Part shown: positions 6,410 to 19,251 of the stretch, in pieces | Layout of the letters: each line of letters opens with the position of its first letter | Numbering within the stretch: the stretch's first letter is position 1 | DNA from: Aliarcobacter vitoriensis | GTDB lineage: Bacteria; Campylobacterota; Campylobacteria; Campylobacterales; Arcobacteraceae | Assembly: GCF_003316695.1 (NCBI RefSeq) | Contig: NZ_PDKB01000001.1 | Coordinates: forward strand, 124,001 to 188,000 | Length of the DNA stretch: 64,000 nucleotides | Direction: 5' to 3' | The notes under the pieces: generated by a model | The model's input: only the letters and a program-made list of their open reading frames with translations | What the model was told of the DNA's origin: nothing | Database searches by the model: none | Made by a program: the position numbers and the translations under genes

Positions 6410-8881
6410 TTAAGAGCAAATTAAATCCAATATTTTTTCACTGTTTTTACAAAAATTACCATTTTTTTCTATTAGAAGTAAATCTTTTGCATATCCTTTT
6501 GAAGTAGTAAGCTTAGAGCTTTCTATTTCAATACCAAAATCATCAAAAACTTTTGCTATATAAGCAAATAAACCTTTTTGGTCTTTAGTATGTATTTTCA
6601 TAGATGCTAAATATTCACTATGATTACAATCTATTTTAATATCTTTTCTTTTGATGATTGGTTTTTTAAGTTTTATATCTCTATTCATATCAAAAGAATC
6701 ATTTATAATCTCTTCTATTAAATATAATTCTTCATCTAAAGCTTTTTTAGAAAAAGATATTTCAAAAATTTTCTTTTCATCATATAGTTTAAATATATTC
6801 ATACCATTCATATCTAAATATTGAAGTTTGCCCAATAGATATCCTAAATTTAGAGGAATTTTTCTAGTGATTCTTATCTTTAGATAGTTTTCATTGATGA
6901 TATCAAAACTATAAGTTGATACATCTTTTGCTTTTATTGCAATATCTAAGATATCTACACTTTTTAATCGTAAAAACATCTGGTTGGAAGATATTTGAGA
7001 TATTTTTCTTTTTAATGTATTTGGTAAATCTTGATAATTTGGTAAAGTTTTTATACGATTTAGTTTTGAAACTCTTGTAATACTTGCACGAATTAACTCT
7101 GGGTCTTGAAAAGCTAAAATACTTTTTTTGTATAAAACTTTTAAAAGTTCTGCTGTTGAACTATTAAAAAGATATTTATTAACTGCACAAATATCACAAT
7201 ATGTGAGAACATATAAGATTTTTATCTCATTTATATTTTTGAAAAGACCTATAAAATTTAAAATAGTTTTTTGTGAGTAAATATCTTCATTCATAGAAAT
7301 TCTTGACATTTGGTCGTGGTATCTTATGATATTTGCACCAGTTTTTATAAGTTCATCATCAAAACCAAAGTTTTTCATAGCTTTTTTGAAAATATTTTCT
7401 CCAATTATATGGTGGTCTTTTCTTCTTCCTTTACCAATATCATGATAAAGTGTAACAAGTCTTGTTAATATTTTTTCATCTTTAGTTAAGTTATCATAAA
7501 TATCTTTTATAAAAGAATCGTCTATATTTGTAACAAGTTTTAAAGCTTGTAAAGAGTGAATATCAACAGGATGTCTGTGATAACCATCAAATTGAGATAG
7601 ATGTAAGATTTTCTTAAAATTAGGAAGTAAGATTGATATGAGTTCACTATTATAAAAAAGTTTTAAAATAGGGTATAGATTTTCATTGCATAAAAGAGTT
7701 TTAATATCTTTTTTTATATTTTTACTTATTATTTTTGGTCTTTTTGTTTGACTTGCAAAATATACATAAGATCTATCAAACCCATTTATATTTTGTGGAA
7801 AACTTATCAACTCTTTTAATAAGCTTGAAAGTTTTACACTTTTTCGATTAAAAGAACAAAACAACCTATTTTCTATGATATATATACCTTTTTTGTATCT
7901 ATATTCTTTTAAATTTTTCAAATTCTCTTTATCAAAAAATATTGATTTTACAAATTTAGAACTCATATTTGAGTGAAAATTATGAATTGTATGTAAAGAA
8001 GAAAAAACTTTTGACATACACTCAAATTCATTTTTAAACCCTAGCTTTTTACTTAACTCTGGTAATGTATCAAAAGATATTAAATCAACTTTCTTTTTAT
8101 GAATTGTATGTAGAGTATTTCTTGTTTGAAATATAAAATCTAAAGCATTTGTAAATTTTTTGTAAGAATTTATATTTAATTTTGTTCCTACTAACTCTTT
8201 TGCTTTTTGAACATCATAAACAACATTTAAAATCCAAAAAAGCATATTTGCTTCTCTAATTCCTCCATAACCTTCTTTTAGATTTACTTGCATATCTAAA
8301 GGATGTTTTTTTAATCTTTGAGTGTGCATATAAAGTTGCTCTTCAATAAATTTTCTTTTTTCTATTTGTCTCAAATTTTTTACAAATATTTCAAAATTTT
8401 GGTAAATTCTTTTTGAACCAAAAATATGTCGAGATTCTAAAAGAGAAGTTTTTATTGTAACATCATCTTTTGCTAATCCATAAAGTTCATCAATCTCATC
8501 AAGTCTTACGACTCTTAAACCAAGTTTTAAACCACAATCCCAAGCAAAAGCTACAAATCTTTCTATAATTTTAGAAATATCGTAAGAATGACTATTTTTA
8601 TATAAAATCATAATATCAATATCTGAGTGTAAACATAGTTCAACTCTTGCATAAGAACCTAAAGCTATAAAACTTATGAATCTATTGTTTTTAAAATTTG
8701 AACTTACATAAGAGAATATTTGAAATAAGAATTTATCAATATTTCTAGTATGTTTTTTGAAAAATATTTTACTGTTATTCGTATTTGCACTTTTTAAATA
8801 ATCTAAATAAGTTTTTTTAAATATTTTTGAAGTATCGAAGCTATTTTCACTAAAGTTATTTAAGTGAAAATTCTTAATCAT
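6410..8881 (-). CDS. glnD: Bifunctional uridylyltransferase/uridylyl-removing enzyme GlnD
   Basis: Sensor of glutamine that uridylylates PII and removes the UMP. At 823 residues it is slightly short for GlnD but complete. The nucleotidyltransferase motif GSYARVELCLHSDID is at 75-89. The HD hydrolase domain shows HRHPVDIHSLQ and LVTLYHDIGKGRRKDHH (near 475-490). Two C-terminal ACT-like regions follow, the last containing IHTKDQKGLFAYIAKVF. The PII target with Tyr51 is encoded 3.4 kb away (12287). The start codon lies inside the end of the large ankyrin gene (overlap 8878-8881), implying translational coupling. Confidence 0.93.
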   Translation of the reverse strand: MIKNFHLNNFSENSFDTSKIFKKTYLDYLKSANTNNSKIFFKKHTRNIDKFLFQIFSYVSSNFKNNRFISFIALGSYARVELCLHSDIDIMILYKNSHSYDISKIIERFVAFAWDCGLKLGLRVVRLDEIDELYGLAKDDVTIKTSLLESRHIFGSKRIYQNFEIFVKNLRQIEKRKFIEEQLYMHTQRLKKHPLDMQVNLKEGYGGIREANMLFWILNVVYDVQKAKELVGTKLNINSYKKFTNALDFIFQTRNTLHTIHKKKVDLISFDTLPELSKKLGFKNEFECMSKVFSSLHTIHNFHSNMSSKFVKSIFFDKENLKNLKEYRYKKGIYIIENRLFCSFNRKSVKLSSLLKELISFPQNINGFDRSYVYFASQTKRPKIISKNIKKDIKTLLCNENLYPILKLFYNSELISILLPNFKKILHLSQFDGYHRHPVDIHSLQALKLVTNIDDSFIKDIYDNLTKDEKILTRLVTLYHDIGKGRRKDHHIIGENIFKKAMKNFGFDDELIKTGANIIRYHDQMSRISMNEDIYSQKTILNFIGLFKNINEIKILYVLTYCDICAVNKYLFNSSTAELLKVLYKKSILAFQDPELIRASITRVSKLNRIKTLPNYQDLPNTLKRKISQISSNQMFLRLKSVDILDIAIKAKDVSTYSFDIINENYLKIRITRKIPLNLGYLLGKLQYLDMNGMNIFKLYDEKKIFEISFSKKALDEELYLIEEIINDSFDMNRDIKLKKPIIKRKDIKIDCNHSEYLASMKIHTKDQKGLFAYIAKVFDDFGIEIESSKLTTSKGYAKDLLLIEKNGNFCKNSEKILDLICS

Positions 8882-10809
8882 TTTTTTGAAATCCCTATAT
8901 TAAACTCTAAAATCATATTTTCTGCTAATCTATCTAAATTTGATTTATCATTTTTATCTTGTACATCAAGTGATAAATTCAAAATATTTTTATGGTATCT
9001 TTCCAAAAAAGTTAGTATATTAGGTGATTTTTTATAAGGGTTATTTATAGAAGTTCCCAAATTTATAAGTTCTAATACTGTGTGCTTTTTACCCATAAAT
9101 GCAGCATAATTTATAGGTTTAACACCAAAATAGTCAGCTTTATTTAAAATATCACCATTATAAGAAGAAATAAGTTTTATATAGTTTTCTTTATCTTTAA
9201 AGATTGTTGTGTGTATTATATTTCTTCCCTTCTCATCTACAAAAGTGCAATCAGCTCTTAGATTTAATAGAAGTTTTACAATATCTTCTTTATCGTTTAG
9301 TATTGCAAACTCTAAAGCTGTAAAACCTTTGTCATTTTTACTATTTATATCAACTCCAGCATTTATAAGATTTTTAATTGTCAATAATAACATTCTTCTA
9401 TCTTCTGATTTTTTTGTTAAATCTTGTTCTAAAAGTCTAAAAATTATATTGTTCCCATTTATATCTGTTTCATTTAAATTAATATTTTTTGTTCTTAAGA
9501 TTTTAAATATTGAAATATTAAAATTCAATAAAGTAGGAAAAAATAGTGGTTCATTTTTAGAGTTAAAATTATTTACATTAATATGATAGTTCTTGATAAG
9601 TAATTCTAATATATCTTTATATTGGGCATTTTGTACTATTTGATTTTTATAAATATCTTCTAAAAATATTTCATTTTCAATATTTAAAAGAATATCAATC
9701 AAAATTTCTATTATAGATTTTCCATACTTATTTTTATAATCTAATTTTGCACCTTTTTCAATATATAGTTTTATTAAATCATAATTTTCTATTCCACTAA
9801 AAACTAAAATATCTAGAACAGTTAAAGCTTCTATATTTTGTCTATTTAAGTTTAATTTTTCTAGATTATTTAATAAATAGTGAATTAAATCTCTATCTAA
9901 ACTTCTTGTTATATTAAAAAATATAGTTTCATTTTGATTGTCTATTGCTTGAACATTTATATTAAGTTGAACTAACTCTTTTATTAGTTCTGCTTGAGAA
10001 TCTCTTTTTGATGTTTTTGAAATTTGTAAGAAGTATTCTACAGCTTTCATCAATATATTTTTATTTTCACTATTTTTTATATTTAGATTAAATCCAAGTT
10101 CACTAGCTCTTTTTATAAAATTAATTCCTTTAATGCCTTTTGTAACAATATAAAATAGGTAACTTTGTTGATTAGCATTTATTATTGTTGGATCCGCACC
10201 TTGATTTAATAAATATAAAGCTAAATCGATATTTTTTAGAGAATTATCTAAATGTAAGATAGTATTTCCACTACTATTTTTATGGTTTATATCAATTTTT
10301 TTTAAAGATATTATTTTTTTTATAATATTTAAATTTCCATTTATAATTGCATCAAATAGTACATTGTTCCCATTGTTATCACAATTTGTAAAAAGAGTTG
10401 ATTTTTGTATTAAAAATCTAATAAGTTTATTATTTGAATTGTGTATTGATTCTTGTAAAACTGTTCTATTTTGCTTATTTAAATGGTTTAAATCTGCACC
10501 AAAATCTATTAAAGTATCCAATAGTCTAGTGTCTTTTGAATAAATTGCATAAAATATTGCACTTTCTTTTAAATTATTTTCAAGTTCTATATCTATTTTA
10601 TTTTCTAGCAACCACAAACAAGAATTATATAAATCTTTTTTACAACAAGATAATAATATGGGTTCATCATTAATATATAATGAGTTTAAATCAATTTTTG
10701 ATTTTGTATAGATTTTATTTATGTTTTCGATATTAAATTCAGGATTTATCAACTCTTTTATTAAATCTTCATTTGAATATTTGTTGAAACTATTTAATAA
10801 TCCTAACAT
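8878..10809 (-). CDS. Large ankyrin-repeat protein co-transcribed with glnD
   Basis: 643 residues made almost wholly of ankyrin repeats from about residue 48 to 610. Examples are NLKESAIFYAIYSKDTRLLD, NNGNNVLFDAIINGNLNIIK and NDKGFTALEFAILNDKEDIV, each with the GADxN-type turn (FGADLNHLN, QGADPTIIN, AGVDINSKN). There is no signal peptide or membrane helix, so a cytoplasmic scaffold is likely. It is the first gene of a two-gene minus-strand operon, and its stop overlaps the glnD start by four bases. That coupling makes a role connected with GlnD or PII plausible, but this is inference from position. No catalytic domain is visible. Confidence 0.85.
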   Translation of the reverse strand: MLGLLNSFNKYSNEDLIKELINPEFNIENINKIYTKSKIDLNSLYINDEPILLSCCKKDLYNSCLWLLENKIDIELENNLKESAIFYAIYSKDTRLLDTLIDFGADLNHLNKQNRTVLQESIHNSNNKLIRFLIQKSTLFTNCDNNGNNVLFDAIINGNLNIIKKIISLKKIDINHKNSSGNTILHLDNSLKNIDLALYLLNQGADPTIINANQQSYLFYIVTKGIKGINFIKRASELGFNLNIKNSENKNILMKAVEYFLQISKTSKRDSQAELIKELVQLNINVQAIDNQNETIFFNITRSLDRDLIHYLLNNLEKLNLNRQNIEALTVLDILVFSGIENYDLIKLYIEKGAKLDYKNKYGKSIIEILIDILLNIENEIFLEDIYKNQIVQNAQYKDILELLIKNYHINVNNFNSKNEPLFFPTLLNFNISIFKILRTKNINLNETDINGNNIIFRLLEQDLTKKSEDRRMLLLTIKNLINAGVDINSKNDKGFTALEFAILNDKEDIVKLLLNLRADCTFVDEKGRNIIHTTIFKDKENYIKLISSYNGDILNKADYFGVKPINYAAFMGKKHTVLELINLGTSINNPYKKSPNILTFLERYHKNILNLSLDVQDKNDKSNLDRLAENMILEFNIGISKK

Positions 10810-14778: not shown

Positions 14779-15828
14779 TTATCCTCTTAACTCAATATCA
14801 ACATCAATAGCACCCATCTCTTTTATCATTTTTATAGTGTCAATTATTTCTGTCATTGGTACTTTCATAACTTTCATTGAACGTACTAAATCTGATATTG
14901 TTGGGTCTTTTTTTGTATTTATCATTGCATTATTTATATCAATTACAGGTTTATTTGCAATTCTTACATCATCACCTATATCTTCACCTTTATTTACTGA
15001 AGGATTATTCCAATTTTCTTCAGATAAATCAGATTTATTAATTCTAATTGTAAATGAATCTCTTGCAATTGTAATTGGAGATATAACAACATCTCCACCA
15101 GTTATAATTGATTCTCTGTTTACATCTATAATTAATTTTTTTCTAAATGTCGAATCAAGTTCTATGTTTTCAACCTTAGATATAAAACTTACAATAGACA
15201 TATTTGTAGGTTTGAGAACCTCAATAGTTCTTGTATCAAGTGCGGTTGCCAATCTTTGTCCAAAAGTTTCATTAATCTTTTTTTCTATCAAATCTGCATT
15301 TTTTGCAGAACTTTTTACTAAACTTAATTGAATAGATTTTTCATTTTGTAGTTCATACTCTAGTTCATTTTCAACAGTAGCACCCTCATATATAAAACCT
15401 GTTGTTTTATTATTTGTATTTGCAGTTACAGTTCCTTGTGCAACTGCATAAACATTTCCATCTACACCTTTTAATTGAGTTAGTAAAAGTTCTCCATAAT
15501 CTATTGATGTTGAATCACCAATAGTTGAAACTGTAACTTTTATTTTATCACCTTGTCTTGAAAATGGTGGCAAATCAGCAGTTACCATAACAGCTGCAAT
15601 ATTTTTTGAATTTATAGAACCAGCTGGAATTTTTATATAAGAATTTGTAAGAAGATTTTGTAAACTTTGCATTGTAAATTTTGACTTATCTCCTGTTCCA
15701 GCAAGTCCTACAATCAGTCCATAACCAATTAGTTGATTATCTCTTATTCCTATGACATTTGATATATCTTTAATAGTTTGAGAAAATAAAGAAGATGTTA
15801 GTAGTAAAATAAAAATAAATATTTTCAA
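14779..15828 (-). CDS. flgI: Flagellar P-ring protein FlgI
   Basis: 349-residue periplasmic P-ring subunit. A Sec signal peptide (MKIFIFILLLTSSLFS) is followed by the canonical IGIRDNQLIGYGLIVGLAGTGD. NAMINTKKDPTISDLVRSMK and DIDVELRG-type ends are typical of the family. It is the first gene of the flgI-fliM minus operon and diverges from the acidic flagellar-cluster gene at 15923; flgH, the L-ring partner, lies in that divergent operon. Confidence 0.96.
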   Translation of the reverse strand: MKIFIFILLLTSSLFSQTIKDISNVIGIRDNQLIGYGLIVGLAGTGDKSKFTMQSLQNLLTNSYIKIPAGSINSKNIAAVMVTADLPPFSRQGDKIKVTVSTIGDSTSIDYGELLLTQLKGVDGNVYAVAQGTVTANTNNKTTGFIYEGATVENELEYELQNEKSIQLSLVKSSAKNADLIEKKINETFGQRLATALDTRTIEVLKPTNMSIVSFISKVENIELDSTFRKKLIIDVNRESIITGGDVVISPITIARDSFTIRINKSDLSEENWNNPSVNKGEDIGDDVRIANKPVIDINNAMINTKKDPTISDLVRSMKVMKVPMTEIIDTIKMIKEMGAIDVDIELRG

Positions 15829-15922: not shown

Positions 15923-17122
15923 TTGAATATTTTTATCTATGGAAATCAAAGTTTTAAAAAAGATATACAAAAAATTTTACAAGATTCAAAAATAAATGAA
16001 GCATTAGAAGATTTAGATATAGTTGAAATAGATGATATTAAAAAATTAAAAGAAAATATAGCTTCAAATCCAAATAATGTATATTTAATTGATGATGATA
16101 AAATAATTAAAAATAAGAGTAAATTTAGTTTTTTGAAACATAAAGATGGTATTGAAGAAGAATTTTTACTTGAATGTGGAGTAGATGATTTATCTATCGA
16201 TTCCTTAGAAGAAATCCCGAATTATATTATAAGAAAGTTTAATAGACAGACCTTACAACAAGAAGATAATCTTGCTATAAAAGATGAAAGCTTAGCATTA
16301 GATTTAGATAGTGAATTATCCAAACTTTTAGAAACTGGAAATCAAGAAGAAACAATAGTTGAAGATGATTTAAATATTGAAGAACCTATAGGATTGGATA
16401 TAAAAGAACTCGATAATTTAATTGAATCTAAAAGCATATATGAAGATAATAAAAATGATAGTAATTTTAATCCACTAGAATCTTTTAGTGAAGATTTTGG
16501 ATTAAATAATATATCTTATGACTATGACGATGACTCCATTTATAATGATAATACAAAAAGTGATGAAGATATTTTATCTGATATTTTAAATTCAACTAAT
16601 TTAGATGAAGATGATTTTCAATCTGTTAGTGAAACTTTTGAAGATGTCAATTTTTTAGATCAAATTTTCCCAAATAAGTCTATTTTAGAAAAAGTTATTG
16701 AAGATAAAAAAAATGAAGATACTTATGATTATTTAGAGAATAACTTTGAAGAGTTGGAAAATATTGAACCTTCAAGATTATTTGAAAATATTGAATTAAA
16801 AGATGAAATTGATGCTACAATAAATCAAAATAACGATATAATTGAAGATTTAGAAGAACATAAACAAGAAATAATTTTAAATGATGCCGAAGAATATGAT
16901 GAGGTACAAGGAGATGATATGAATGATGAATTTTTAGAGTTGGATGGTTTAAATGAACAAGATTTAATTTCTGCTTTAGAAGATATTCCTAATGCTATTA
17001 TTGAAACAAAAAATGTTAATAGTGTAGAACTTGATAGTTCAAATGTTCAAGATATAGCTAGTTTGATTTCTAAATTATTAAATAATAAAACTTTAGAGAT
17101 CACTATTAAAATAAAAGATTAA
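15923..17122 (+). CDS. Highly acidic protein with N-terminal degenerate receiver-like domain, flagellar cluster
   Basis: 399 residues. Residues 1-108 have the strand-helix rhythm of a response-regulator receiver: MNIFIYG, IVEIDD, VYLIDDDKI at 53-61, and LLECGVDDLSIDSLEEI at 82-98, matching the usual GADDYL...LEEL end. It lacks the acidic pair after strand 1 and the KP lysine, so it is probably a pseudo-receiver. Residues about 110-350 are extremely Asp/Glu-rich. A short ordered tail (DIASLISKLLNNKTLEITI) closes it. TTG start, TTAGGG six bases upstream. fliQ starts 2 bases after the stop. Function unknown; context says flagellar. Confidence 0.75.
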   Translation: MNIFIYGNQSFKKDIQKILQDSKINEALEDLDIVEIDDIKKLKENIASNPNNVYLIDDDKIIKNKSKFSFLKHKDGIEEEFLLECGVDDLSIDSLEEIPNYIIRKFNRQTLQQEDNLAIKDESLALDLDSELSKLLETGNQEETIVEDDLNIEEPIGLDIKELDNLIESKSIYEDNKNDSNFNPLESFSEDFGLNNISYDYDDDSIYNDNTKSDEDILSDILNSTNLDEDDFQSVSETFEDVNFLDQIFPNKSILEKVIEDKKNEDTYDYLENNFEELENIEPSRLFENIELKDEIDATINQNNDIIEDLEEHKQEIILNDAEEYDEVQGDDMNDEFLELDGLNEQDLISALEDIPNAIIETKNVNSVELDSSNVQDIASLISKLLNNKTLEITIKIKD

Positions 17123-17124
17123 AT

Positions 17125-17385
17125 ATGGATTTACTAGCAATATCTCAAAATACAGTTAAGCTTATATTATTAATAGGACTTCCATCGCTGATTGTTAGTA
17201 TGATTATAGGACTAGTAATTTCTATTTTTTCTGCTGTTACACAAGTAAATGATGCTTCATTATCTTTCGTTCCAAAGATGATAATTGTTTCAATCTTTAT
17301 ATTAATTACACTTCCTTGGGTTGGTGAACATATGCAATCTTTTACAACAGAACTTTGGAATATAATTTTAATTTTTGGAAGTTAA
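17125..17385 (+). CDS. fliQ: Flagellar export apparatus protein FliQ
   Basis: 86-residue component of the FliPQR export gate in the inner membrane, close to the usual 89. Two hydrophobic hairpin helices are visible, with the family motif MIIGLVISIFSAVTQVND at about 26-43 and MIIVSIFILITLPWVGEHM at about 52-70. It sits within the tight plus-strand operon. fliP and fliR are not in this window, so the export gate genes are split. Confidence 0.95.
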   Translation: MDLLAISQNTVKLILLIGLPSLIVSMIIGLVISIFSAVTQVNDASLSFVPKMIIVSIFILITLPWVGEHMQSFTTELWNIILIFGS

Positions 17386-17793: not shown

Positions 17794-18285
17794 TTGATTT
17801 ATAGATTTTTAATTACACTTGTTTTTGCAATAACTTTAAATGCAAATGTAGAAACCAGTAGTTCTTTAACTAGACAAAAAATGGAAGTTTTAGAATTAAA
17901 AAATGAGTTAAATAATTTTTATACAGAAAAAGAGAAAGAATATCAAAATAATAAAAAAGAGATAGAAGGAATACTTACTAAAATAGAACAAGAAAAAGCT
18001 GAAATAAAAAGATTATATGAAAAAAATGAGGAAGTTTTAAAAGATATAAGAGCTGAGATTAAGAAAAAATCTATCAGAGTTTTTGAACAGATGAAAGCAA
18101 AAGTAGCGGCAGAAATTTTTGATCAAATGATACTCGAAGGTAAACTTGAAGATGTTTTTGATATAATCCTTAGACTAAAGGAATCAAATATTTCTAATAT
18201 TATGAAGTTTTTAAGCTTGGAGAATGCTTCTATTTTAACACAAAAACTAGAGAGATATAATAAAGACAAAGACAGAAGGGACTAA
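17794..18285 (+). CDS. MotE-like (MgtE N-domain-like) flagellar protein
   Basis: 163 residues. An N-terminal signal or anchor (MIYRFLITLVFAITLNANV) is followed by a long coiled coil (about 30-95) and a small helical domain ending KVAAEIFDQMILEGKLEDVF and ILRLKESNISNIMKFLSLEN. The end domain resembles the MgtE intracellular N-domain used by MotE, a periplasmic chaperone for MotC in related polar flagellates. TTG start with AAGGG upstream and one base after the FliJ-like gene. The MotE role is inferred from architecture and location. Confidence 0.65.
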   Translation: MIYRFLITLVFAITLNANVETSSSLTRQKMEVLELKNELNNFYTEKEKEYQNNKKEIEGILTKIEQEKAEIKRLYEKNEEVLKDIRAEIKKKSIRVFEQMKAKVAAEIFDQMILEGKLEDVFDIILRLKESNISNIMKFLSLENASILTQKLERYNKDKDRRD

Positions 18286-18816: not shown

Positions 18817-19251
18817 ATGATAGTAGCAATAAAGAAAAGAAAAAAAAGTAATAATATTTTAAAAATATTTTTTATTATCTCTCTATTTTTTGGGATAATA
18901 TATTTGGCATATTTAAACCAAGAGAAGAATATTGCAAAATTAGACTTACAGAAAGCTCAAGAAGAAGAATTAAATCTTATAAAATTTGAAAATGAGAAAA
19001 GAGTAAAAGAGCAGCAAGATGCTCAACGAATTATTTTAATAGAAGCTGAAAAAGTTGTAGATTTGGTTGGTCAAGAATATATAGAAGATGTTAAGATTGT
19101 AAAAAATAAGATAGTGTATATTTTTAAACCAAATACAAATATTGAGGCTATTACAATTAGATACGGTGCTATGGCATTAGTAAAAAAAAGTTTTAATGAT
19201 GTTGTAGTTGTAGTAGATATAGAACATATTTTAAAAAGTAGGTTAAAATAA
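18817..19251 (+). CDS. Unknown bitopic protein in the flagellar operon
   Basis: 144 residues: basic N-terminus (KKRKKSNN), one membrane helix at about 15-32, a charged helical stretch (35-75), then a compact alpha/beta C-terminus (EAEKVVDLVGQEYIEDVKIV, FKPNTNIEAITIRYGAMALV, NDVVVVVDIEHIL). ATG follows the fliL stop with no gap, and the stop overlaps flgH by one base. No family is recognised. Co-translation with fliL and flgH suggests a periplasmic basal-body or motor accessory function. Confidence 0.7.
   Translation: MIVAIKKRKKSNNILKIFFIISLFFGIIYLAYLNQEKNIAKLDLQKAQEEELNLIKFENEKRVKEQQDAQRIILIEAEKVVDLVGQEYIEDVKIVKNKIVYIFKPNTNIEAITIRYGAMALVKKSFNDVVVVVDIEHILKSRLK

Follow-up and report, generated by a model that had tools for sequence, protein, structure and literature searches.

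In type III injectisomes, the SctQ genes (YscQ, SpaO, HrcQ) are reported to carry an internal start from which the C-terminal part of the protein, SctQ-C, is produced (PMC4295842; for SpaO, PMC13059759). SctQ-C is described as necessary for assembly of the cytosolic complex and, in Yersinia, as required for secretion (PMC4295842). Pseudo-receivers are described in one source as domains that are recognised computationally as receivers (PMC12632262). The flagellar genes of Arcobacter have been reported to be reshuffled, with several regulators and scaffold parts lost (PMC9321776), and a survey of 52 Arcobacteraceae with FliPQR reported FliO in none of them (PMC12248157).

We analysed a window of 64,000 nucleotides from Aliarcobacter vitoriensis, in which an ORF of 399 aa with a TTG start, referred to hereafter as X, occupies positions 15923-17122 (+) and stops 2 nt 5' of fliQ. 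Among described systems, the nearest design to X appears to be that of SctQ and SctQ-C. Like SctQ as reported, X is encoded with a type III export system, and strong sequence signals predict an in-frame internal start in X that would give its C-terminal part as a second product. Unlike SctQ, X has no SpoA domain, FliM, FliN and FliY are separate genes, and none of the searches made identified the two as relatives. SpoA (FliMN_C, PF01052) had no match in X or in 25 of the C-terminal products (C-proteins); the three PF01052 matches of the genome lie elsewhere. If the short product is made, the internal-start device of the injectisomes would be present in an unrelated flagellar protein.

Organization of the locus

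X had been described from the letters of the DNA as lying directly upstream of fliQ and opposite fliM. The former holds, as fliQ (86 aa, 17125-17385, +) was identified by Pfam (Bac_export_3, E 4.7e-23); the latter was mistaken, as the divergent neighbour of X is flgI (14779-15828, -; Pfam E 1.7e-92) and fliM lies beyond flgI as seen from X. Downstream of X are fliQ, a FliJ-like coiled coil, a small ORF at 17794, fliL and an ORF at 18817, followed farther on by flgH, flgK, fliD and fliS, which were identified by eye. Among the genes scanned, Pfam confirmed FliQ, FliL and FlgI. X gave no significant match in Pfam or NCBIfam. Orthologues were found in Arcobacter cryaerophilus, Poseidonibacter and Malaciobacter.

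The start of X looks weak across the orthologues. The start codon was TTG at 86 of 88 loci and GTG at 2 (ATG 0/88), and at 57 of the 88 the Shine-Dalgarno sequence (SD) was just 3 nt; L125, L138 and L141, which fall outside the start pattern, were left out of these 88 loci. TTG is also used at flgI (64/88), the 17794 ORF (30/47) and FliJ (24/87). Since TTG is common at flgI and the 17794 ORF, it is not by itself special for X. The flgI figure (14779-15828, -) hints that other genes of the cluster may often have weak starts too.

The gene that follows has no SD of its own. Among 84 loci, fliQ began with ATG in 79 and GTG in 5, an SD of at least 4 nt was present in none (0/84), and the start lay between -1 and +14 nt relative to the X stop. 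X adjoins fliQ at all 84 loci measured.

A putative start signal within the ORF

In an alignment of 38 orthologues, a near-invariant Met stands before the conserved C-terminal part and is preceded by (Q/K/E)-G-(D/E). The DNA at this Met reads AAGGAG, 5 nt, ATG. In the window, the AAGGAG lies at 16908-16913 (+), 5 nt 5' of an ATG at 16919 from which a C-protein of 67 aa (16919-17122, +) would be produced.

Of 93 loci examined, 91 have the C part, fused to the N-terminal domain in 83 and split from it in 8; L132 and L139, which are cut off by contig edges, have none. Among the 83 fused orthologues, an in-frame ATG is present near the site in 81, and 77 have in addition an SD of at least 4 nt. 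The perfect AAGGAG was found in 65 of the 83, or 65 of the 81 with an ATG. By comparison, AAGGAG preceded none of 231 other in-frame ATGs of the same ORFs and 1 of 258 in window ORFs of at least 200 aa, the single case being, by position, X's own site. When the seven codons before the ATG were shuffled synonymously, 26.6 perfect sites were expected (sd 4.0) and no draw of 2000 gave more than 39, compared with the 65 observed. The codon after the SD glycine codon begins with G in 69 of the 70 sequences listed, whether it encodes D, E, V or A, and in L025, L026 and L029 AAGGA is kept in another codon phase. These statistics overstate the evidence somewhat because related sequences are not independent; the pattern spans many genera.

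Six of the 83 fused orthologues lack a good site. One has no start (G034), one has lost the middle part (G280), three have the ATG without an SD (G102, G226 and G227) and one has the ATG with a weak SD (G241). FliQ is present in G034, G102, G226 and G227, so the internal start is dispensable in some flagellated lineages. The G241 locus (L133, AGGGGA) was labelled SD-bearing for the tree only and is SD-lacking in all counts; the starts of L136 and L141 were read by eye. Taken on its own, a two-product architecture for X is highly probable. The unusual property of X, as we read these signals, is a second start within the ORF, which the sequence-only reading had not noticed.

Split and fused genes

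In eight genomes (G036, G233, G235, G236, G240, G260, G261 and G262), the N and C parts are adjacent, separate ORFs. Each of the eight C genes has an SD-like sequence and its own start (7 ATG, 1 GTG). The N-protein of these genomes has no C module, so a shared module cannot join the two proteins there. On the tree there were two changes between split and fused; the tree is midpoint-rooted, and its root does not fix the ancestral state. Rows in which the N-domain match began after model position 20 were left out of it. In L036, L144, L136 and L142, the last residues of the N-protein look similar to the first residues of the C-protein, which might point to a repeated short motif; in L144 the repeat-like pair is INEMREDDIVSALSQ and LDEINEDDIVAALSD.

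The comparison of fused and split genomes accounts for both appearances of the C-protein. In fused species it has no separate ORF and is easily missed, and in split species it appears as a small uncharacterised gene.

The N-terminal domain

Residues 1-108 (15923-16246, +) form a conserved domain (91 aligned rows) that had been read as following the receiver pattern. The resemblance of fold stands in part. An AlphaFold2 model of residues 1-110 from 28 sequences was confident (pLDDT 85.8, pTM 0.79), and most of the structures that VIA-align matched to it were receiver domains (Z 7.3-8.6 over ~91 residues), although a few unrelated proteins also appeared, among them a respiratory complex subunit (Z 8.4); by the program's own warning, Z below 8 may reflect only a common arrangement. 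With Foldseek, the model had no match at E ≤ 0.001 (best E 0.079; CheY of Thermotoga, E 0.28, TM 0.47), and none of 28 N-domains matched the Pfam receiver model at E ≤ 10. The N-domain is thus moderately supported by the model as receiver-like, and is not a proven receiver.

The absence of the first acidic pair and of the switch lysine, both claimed earlier, was borne out by the alignment. All 91 N-domains have Tyr6-Gly7 at the acid-pair position after strand 1, and the residues that follow the last putative strand are mostly D and S, with no Lys at 92-96 in most rows. The positions were matched through the strands of the predicted model, not by a residue-level structural alignment. Aligning the Asp region across orthologues showed that an acceptor-like residue, Asp57, is kept at the end of strand 3 (D in 89 rows, E in 2 of 91), so that only part of the receiver active site, the acid pair and the Lys, is missing. 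The full set of a phospho-active receiver (acid pair, acceptor Asp, Thr/Ser, Lys) is not present in the N-domain. Despite the acceptor-like Asp in 89 of 91 rows, the N-domain has likely lost phosphorylation. It is like the pseudo-receivers in combining a predicted receiver-like fold with absence of the acid pair and Lys; it is unlike those described in the source cited above in that Pfam recognised 0 of 28 as receivers and the Asp is kept. An export- or switch-linked adaptor, as proposed from the letters alone, is a possible role for X.

The acidic linker and the C-terminal module

The roughly 240 strongly acidic residues noted earlier correspond to residues 109-332 (16247-16918, +), a linker of 224 residues with a net charge of -58 and 32% D/E. 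Its length varies among orthologues, short motifs recur along it, and its pLDDT is low.

The tail that follows had been taken to be short and ordered. In the model of the full-length protein it is poorly ordered (blocks of pLDDT about 38-59), and it is set apart by the ATG at 16919 as a separately startable unit. The C-protein, 67 aa here, is about 67-90 aa in most genomes and 121 aa in the longest split case. It consists of two conserved stretches, with invariant and near-invariant residues, around a variable middle. No known family was matched in a Pfam scan of 25 C-proteins or in a PDB sequence search.

Of two candidate identities for this module, one was rejected and the other found no support in Pfam. 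As a mimic of the CheY-binding N-terminal peptide of FliM, the module scored no better than shuffled sequence against a profile of 37 FliM N-termini (mean 0.93 over 91 C-proteins, a set in which L136 and L141 are taken from misplaced starts and L035 and L114 have no real start; shuffled -0.71, sd 3.47, with 28% of shuffles scoring at least as high as the mean). A FliN-like start of the tail, suggested by eye, had no SpoA match in the Pfam scans. The FliN of this genome, at L040 (contig C33, 1471-1758), has only 95 aa and is without a long N-terminal extension.

Distribution of X and its link to the flagellum

Among 104 genomes of the Arcobacteraceae, the N-domain was found in 94 and FliQ in 92, and all 92 are among the 94. 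Ten genomes lack both X and FliQ; two (G280 and G281) have the N-domain without FliQ. A search for FlhA covered 13 genomes, namely those 12 that lack FliQ plus a flagellated control. The control and G263 (61% complete) had FlhA, and G242 had a fragment of it spanning 178 positions. In G280 and G281, which are 85-88% complete, neither FliQ nor FlhA was found, and the flagellar stretch of the X locus is largely gone. The N-domain in these two has diverged 2.9-3.8 (G280) and 1.7-2.4 (G281) times as fast as PyrC, compared with 0.7-1.5 times in four flagellated relatives. The faster divergence fits relaxed constraint after loss of flagella. The flagellar link proposed earlier is thus strengthened by the presence of X in 92 of 92 FliQ-bearing genomes and by the faster N-domain divergence in G280 and G281. 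Judged from the genomes compared, X is a real, conserved and flagellum-linked ORF.

No convincing relatives of X were found outside the Arcobacteraceae in 199 genomes of the order (N and C profiles) or 397 of the phylum (N profile). In the phylum search, 38 of 39 matches lay within the family and the only outside match at E < 0.001 was in G215 (7.9e-4 over 46 positions); in the order search, three outside genomes (G126, G211 and G131) fell below 0.001, weakly and over part of the profile. None of the genes preceding fliQ at 30 loci of other families was recognised as X (fliQ itself was unrecognised at 2 of the 30). Searches of PDB sequences gave no match, and no paper among those listed was seen to describe X or an internal start in a flagellar gene of Arcobacter. 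Pfam scores of FliQ were 77-88 bits in the Arcobacteraceae and 89-106 bits in other families of the order, which makes the Arcobacteraceae FliQ the more divergent.

A two-product model and its alternatives

The explanation that we consider probable is that X, a gene specific to the Arcobacteraceae, encodes a cytosolic accessory of flagellar export in the form of two products, and that its translation is coupled to the synthesis of FliQ. What the genomes themselves show is the conserved SD-ATG, the existence of the two parts as separate genes in some species, the junction with fliQ and the co-occurrence with FliQ. The weak TTG start would yield full-length X, with its receiver-like N-domain, acidic linker and C-terminal module, whereas the strong internal SD-ATG would yield the C-terminal module alone, probably in excess. 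Ribosomes terminating at the stop codon common to both products would then be able to initiate the SD-less fliQ, so that the internal start would also feed FliQ synthesis. We infer that the internal start is used, and with it the ratio of products and the coupling: little full-length X, more C-protein, and FliQ made by coupling. The place and manner of action are proposed on the same basis. Both products would most likely act together in the cytosol at the export gate of the flagellum. The C-protein would be the abundant member and full-length X the scarcer partner that brings in the receiver-like domain, while the acidic short motifs strung along full-length X may hold partners. Speaking against this explanation are the six fused orthologues without a good internal site, the frequent TTG starts of flgI and the 17794 ORF, the missing C module of the N-protein in split genomes and the low confidence of the modelled C-protein fold.

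Alternatively, the internal start might serve only to bring ribosomes to fliQ by coupling, the short product being a by-product and the function residing in full-length X. The want of an SD of at least 4 nt at any of 84 fliQ starts, and the closeness of those starts to the stop of X (-1 to +14 nt), fit this idea. Against it stand the conservation of the C module, with invariant and near-invariant residues, and its retention as a gene of its own in eight genomes, both of which are compatible with an added role in coupling; we consider the idea unlikely. That there is no internal initiation in the fused species, with only full-length X made and the SD-ATG either a relic of fusion or a peptide motif whose codons match an SD by coincidence, is decidedly unlikely. 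Split genes exist, so that fusion is a possible history, and 6 of 83 fused orthologues do without a good site; yet a relic should decay, and AAGGAG was found in 65 of 81 cases where 26.6 would be expected from the same peptides, with the G of the following codon kept whatever the residue. It is very improbable that X is no flagellar protein at all, but one with a general part in signalling or in the envelope, and stands in the flagellar operon by chance. X is indeed kept in G280 and G281, where neither FliQ nor FlhA was found and little of the flagellar stretch is left, but in both the N-domain is diverging faster relative to PyrC than in the four flagellated sisters, and X is present in every one of the 92 genomes with FliQ and missing from 10 of the 12 without it.

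The two-product reading bears on what this family has lost. FliO is a membrane protein and an assembly factor of the FliPQR gate. X is acidic, looks cytosolic and had no FliO match in the Pfam scan, in contrast to the membrane-bound FliO, and it adjoins fliQ in a family reported to be without FliO. Tied to fliQ across the flagellated Arcobacteraceae and with a putative hidden second product, X is a concrete candidate for compensating the loss of FliO or regulators; given the reports cited above, this is a fair, if unproven, role. In a more specific proposal, X and the C-protein would replace FliO, the two cytosolic products together controlling how much FliQ is made and how it assembles into the FliPQR gate, while the weak TTG, the strong internal start and the SD-less coupling would fix the ratios; this is in our estimate quite improbable.

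Other observations at the locus

The 18817 ORF (18817-19251, +; 144 aa) has no Pfam match and, by eye, a likely membrane segment near its start. Its homologue still stands beside X in L089 and L076, where most of the flagellar stretch has been lost; in L089 the 18817-type ORF is also strongly diverged. Between X and the 18817-type ORF (L089, 4001-4966; L076, 3331-5464), the flagellar cluster has been largely deleted in place, and L076 retains a remnant of 102 aa that reads as flgI joined to fliM. Near the flagellar cluster of the window, a 643-aa ORF at 8878-10809 (-) appears by eye to encode an ankyrin-repeat protein.
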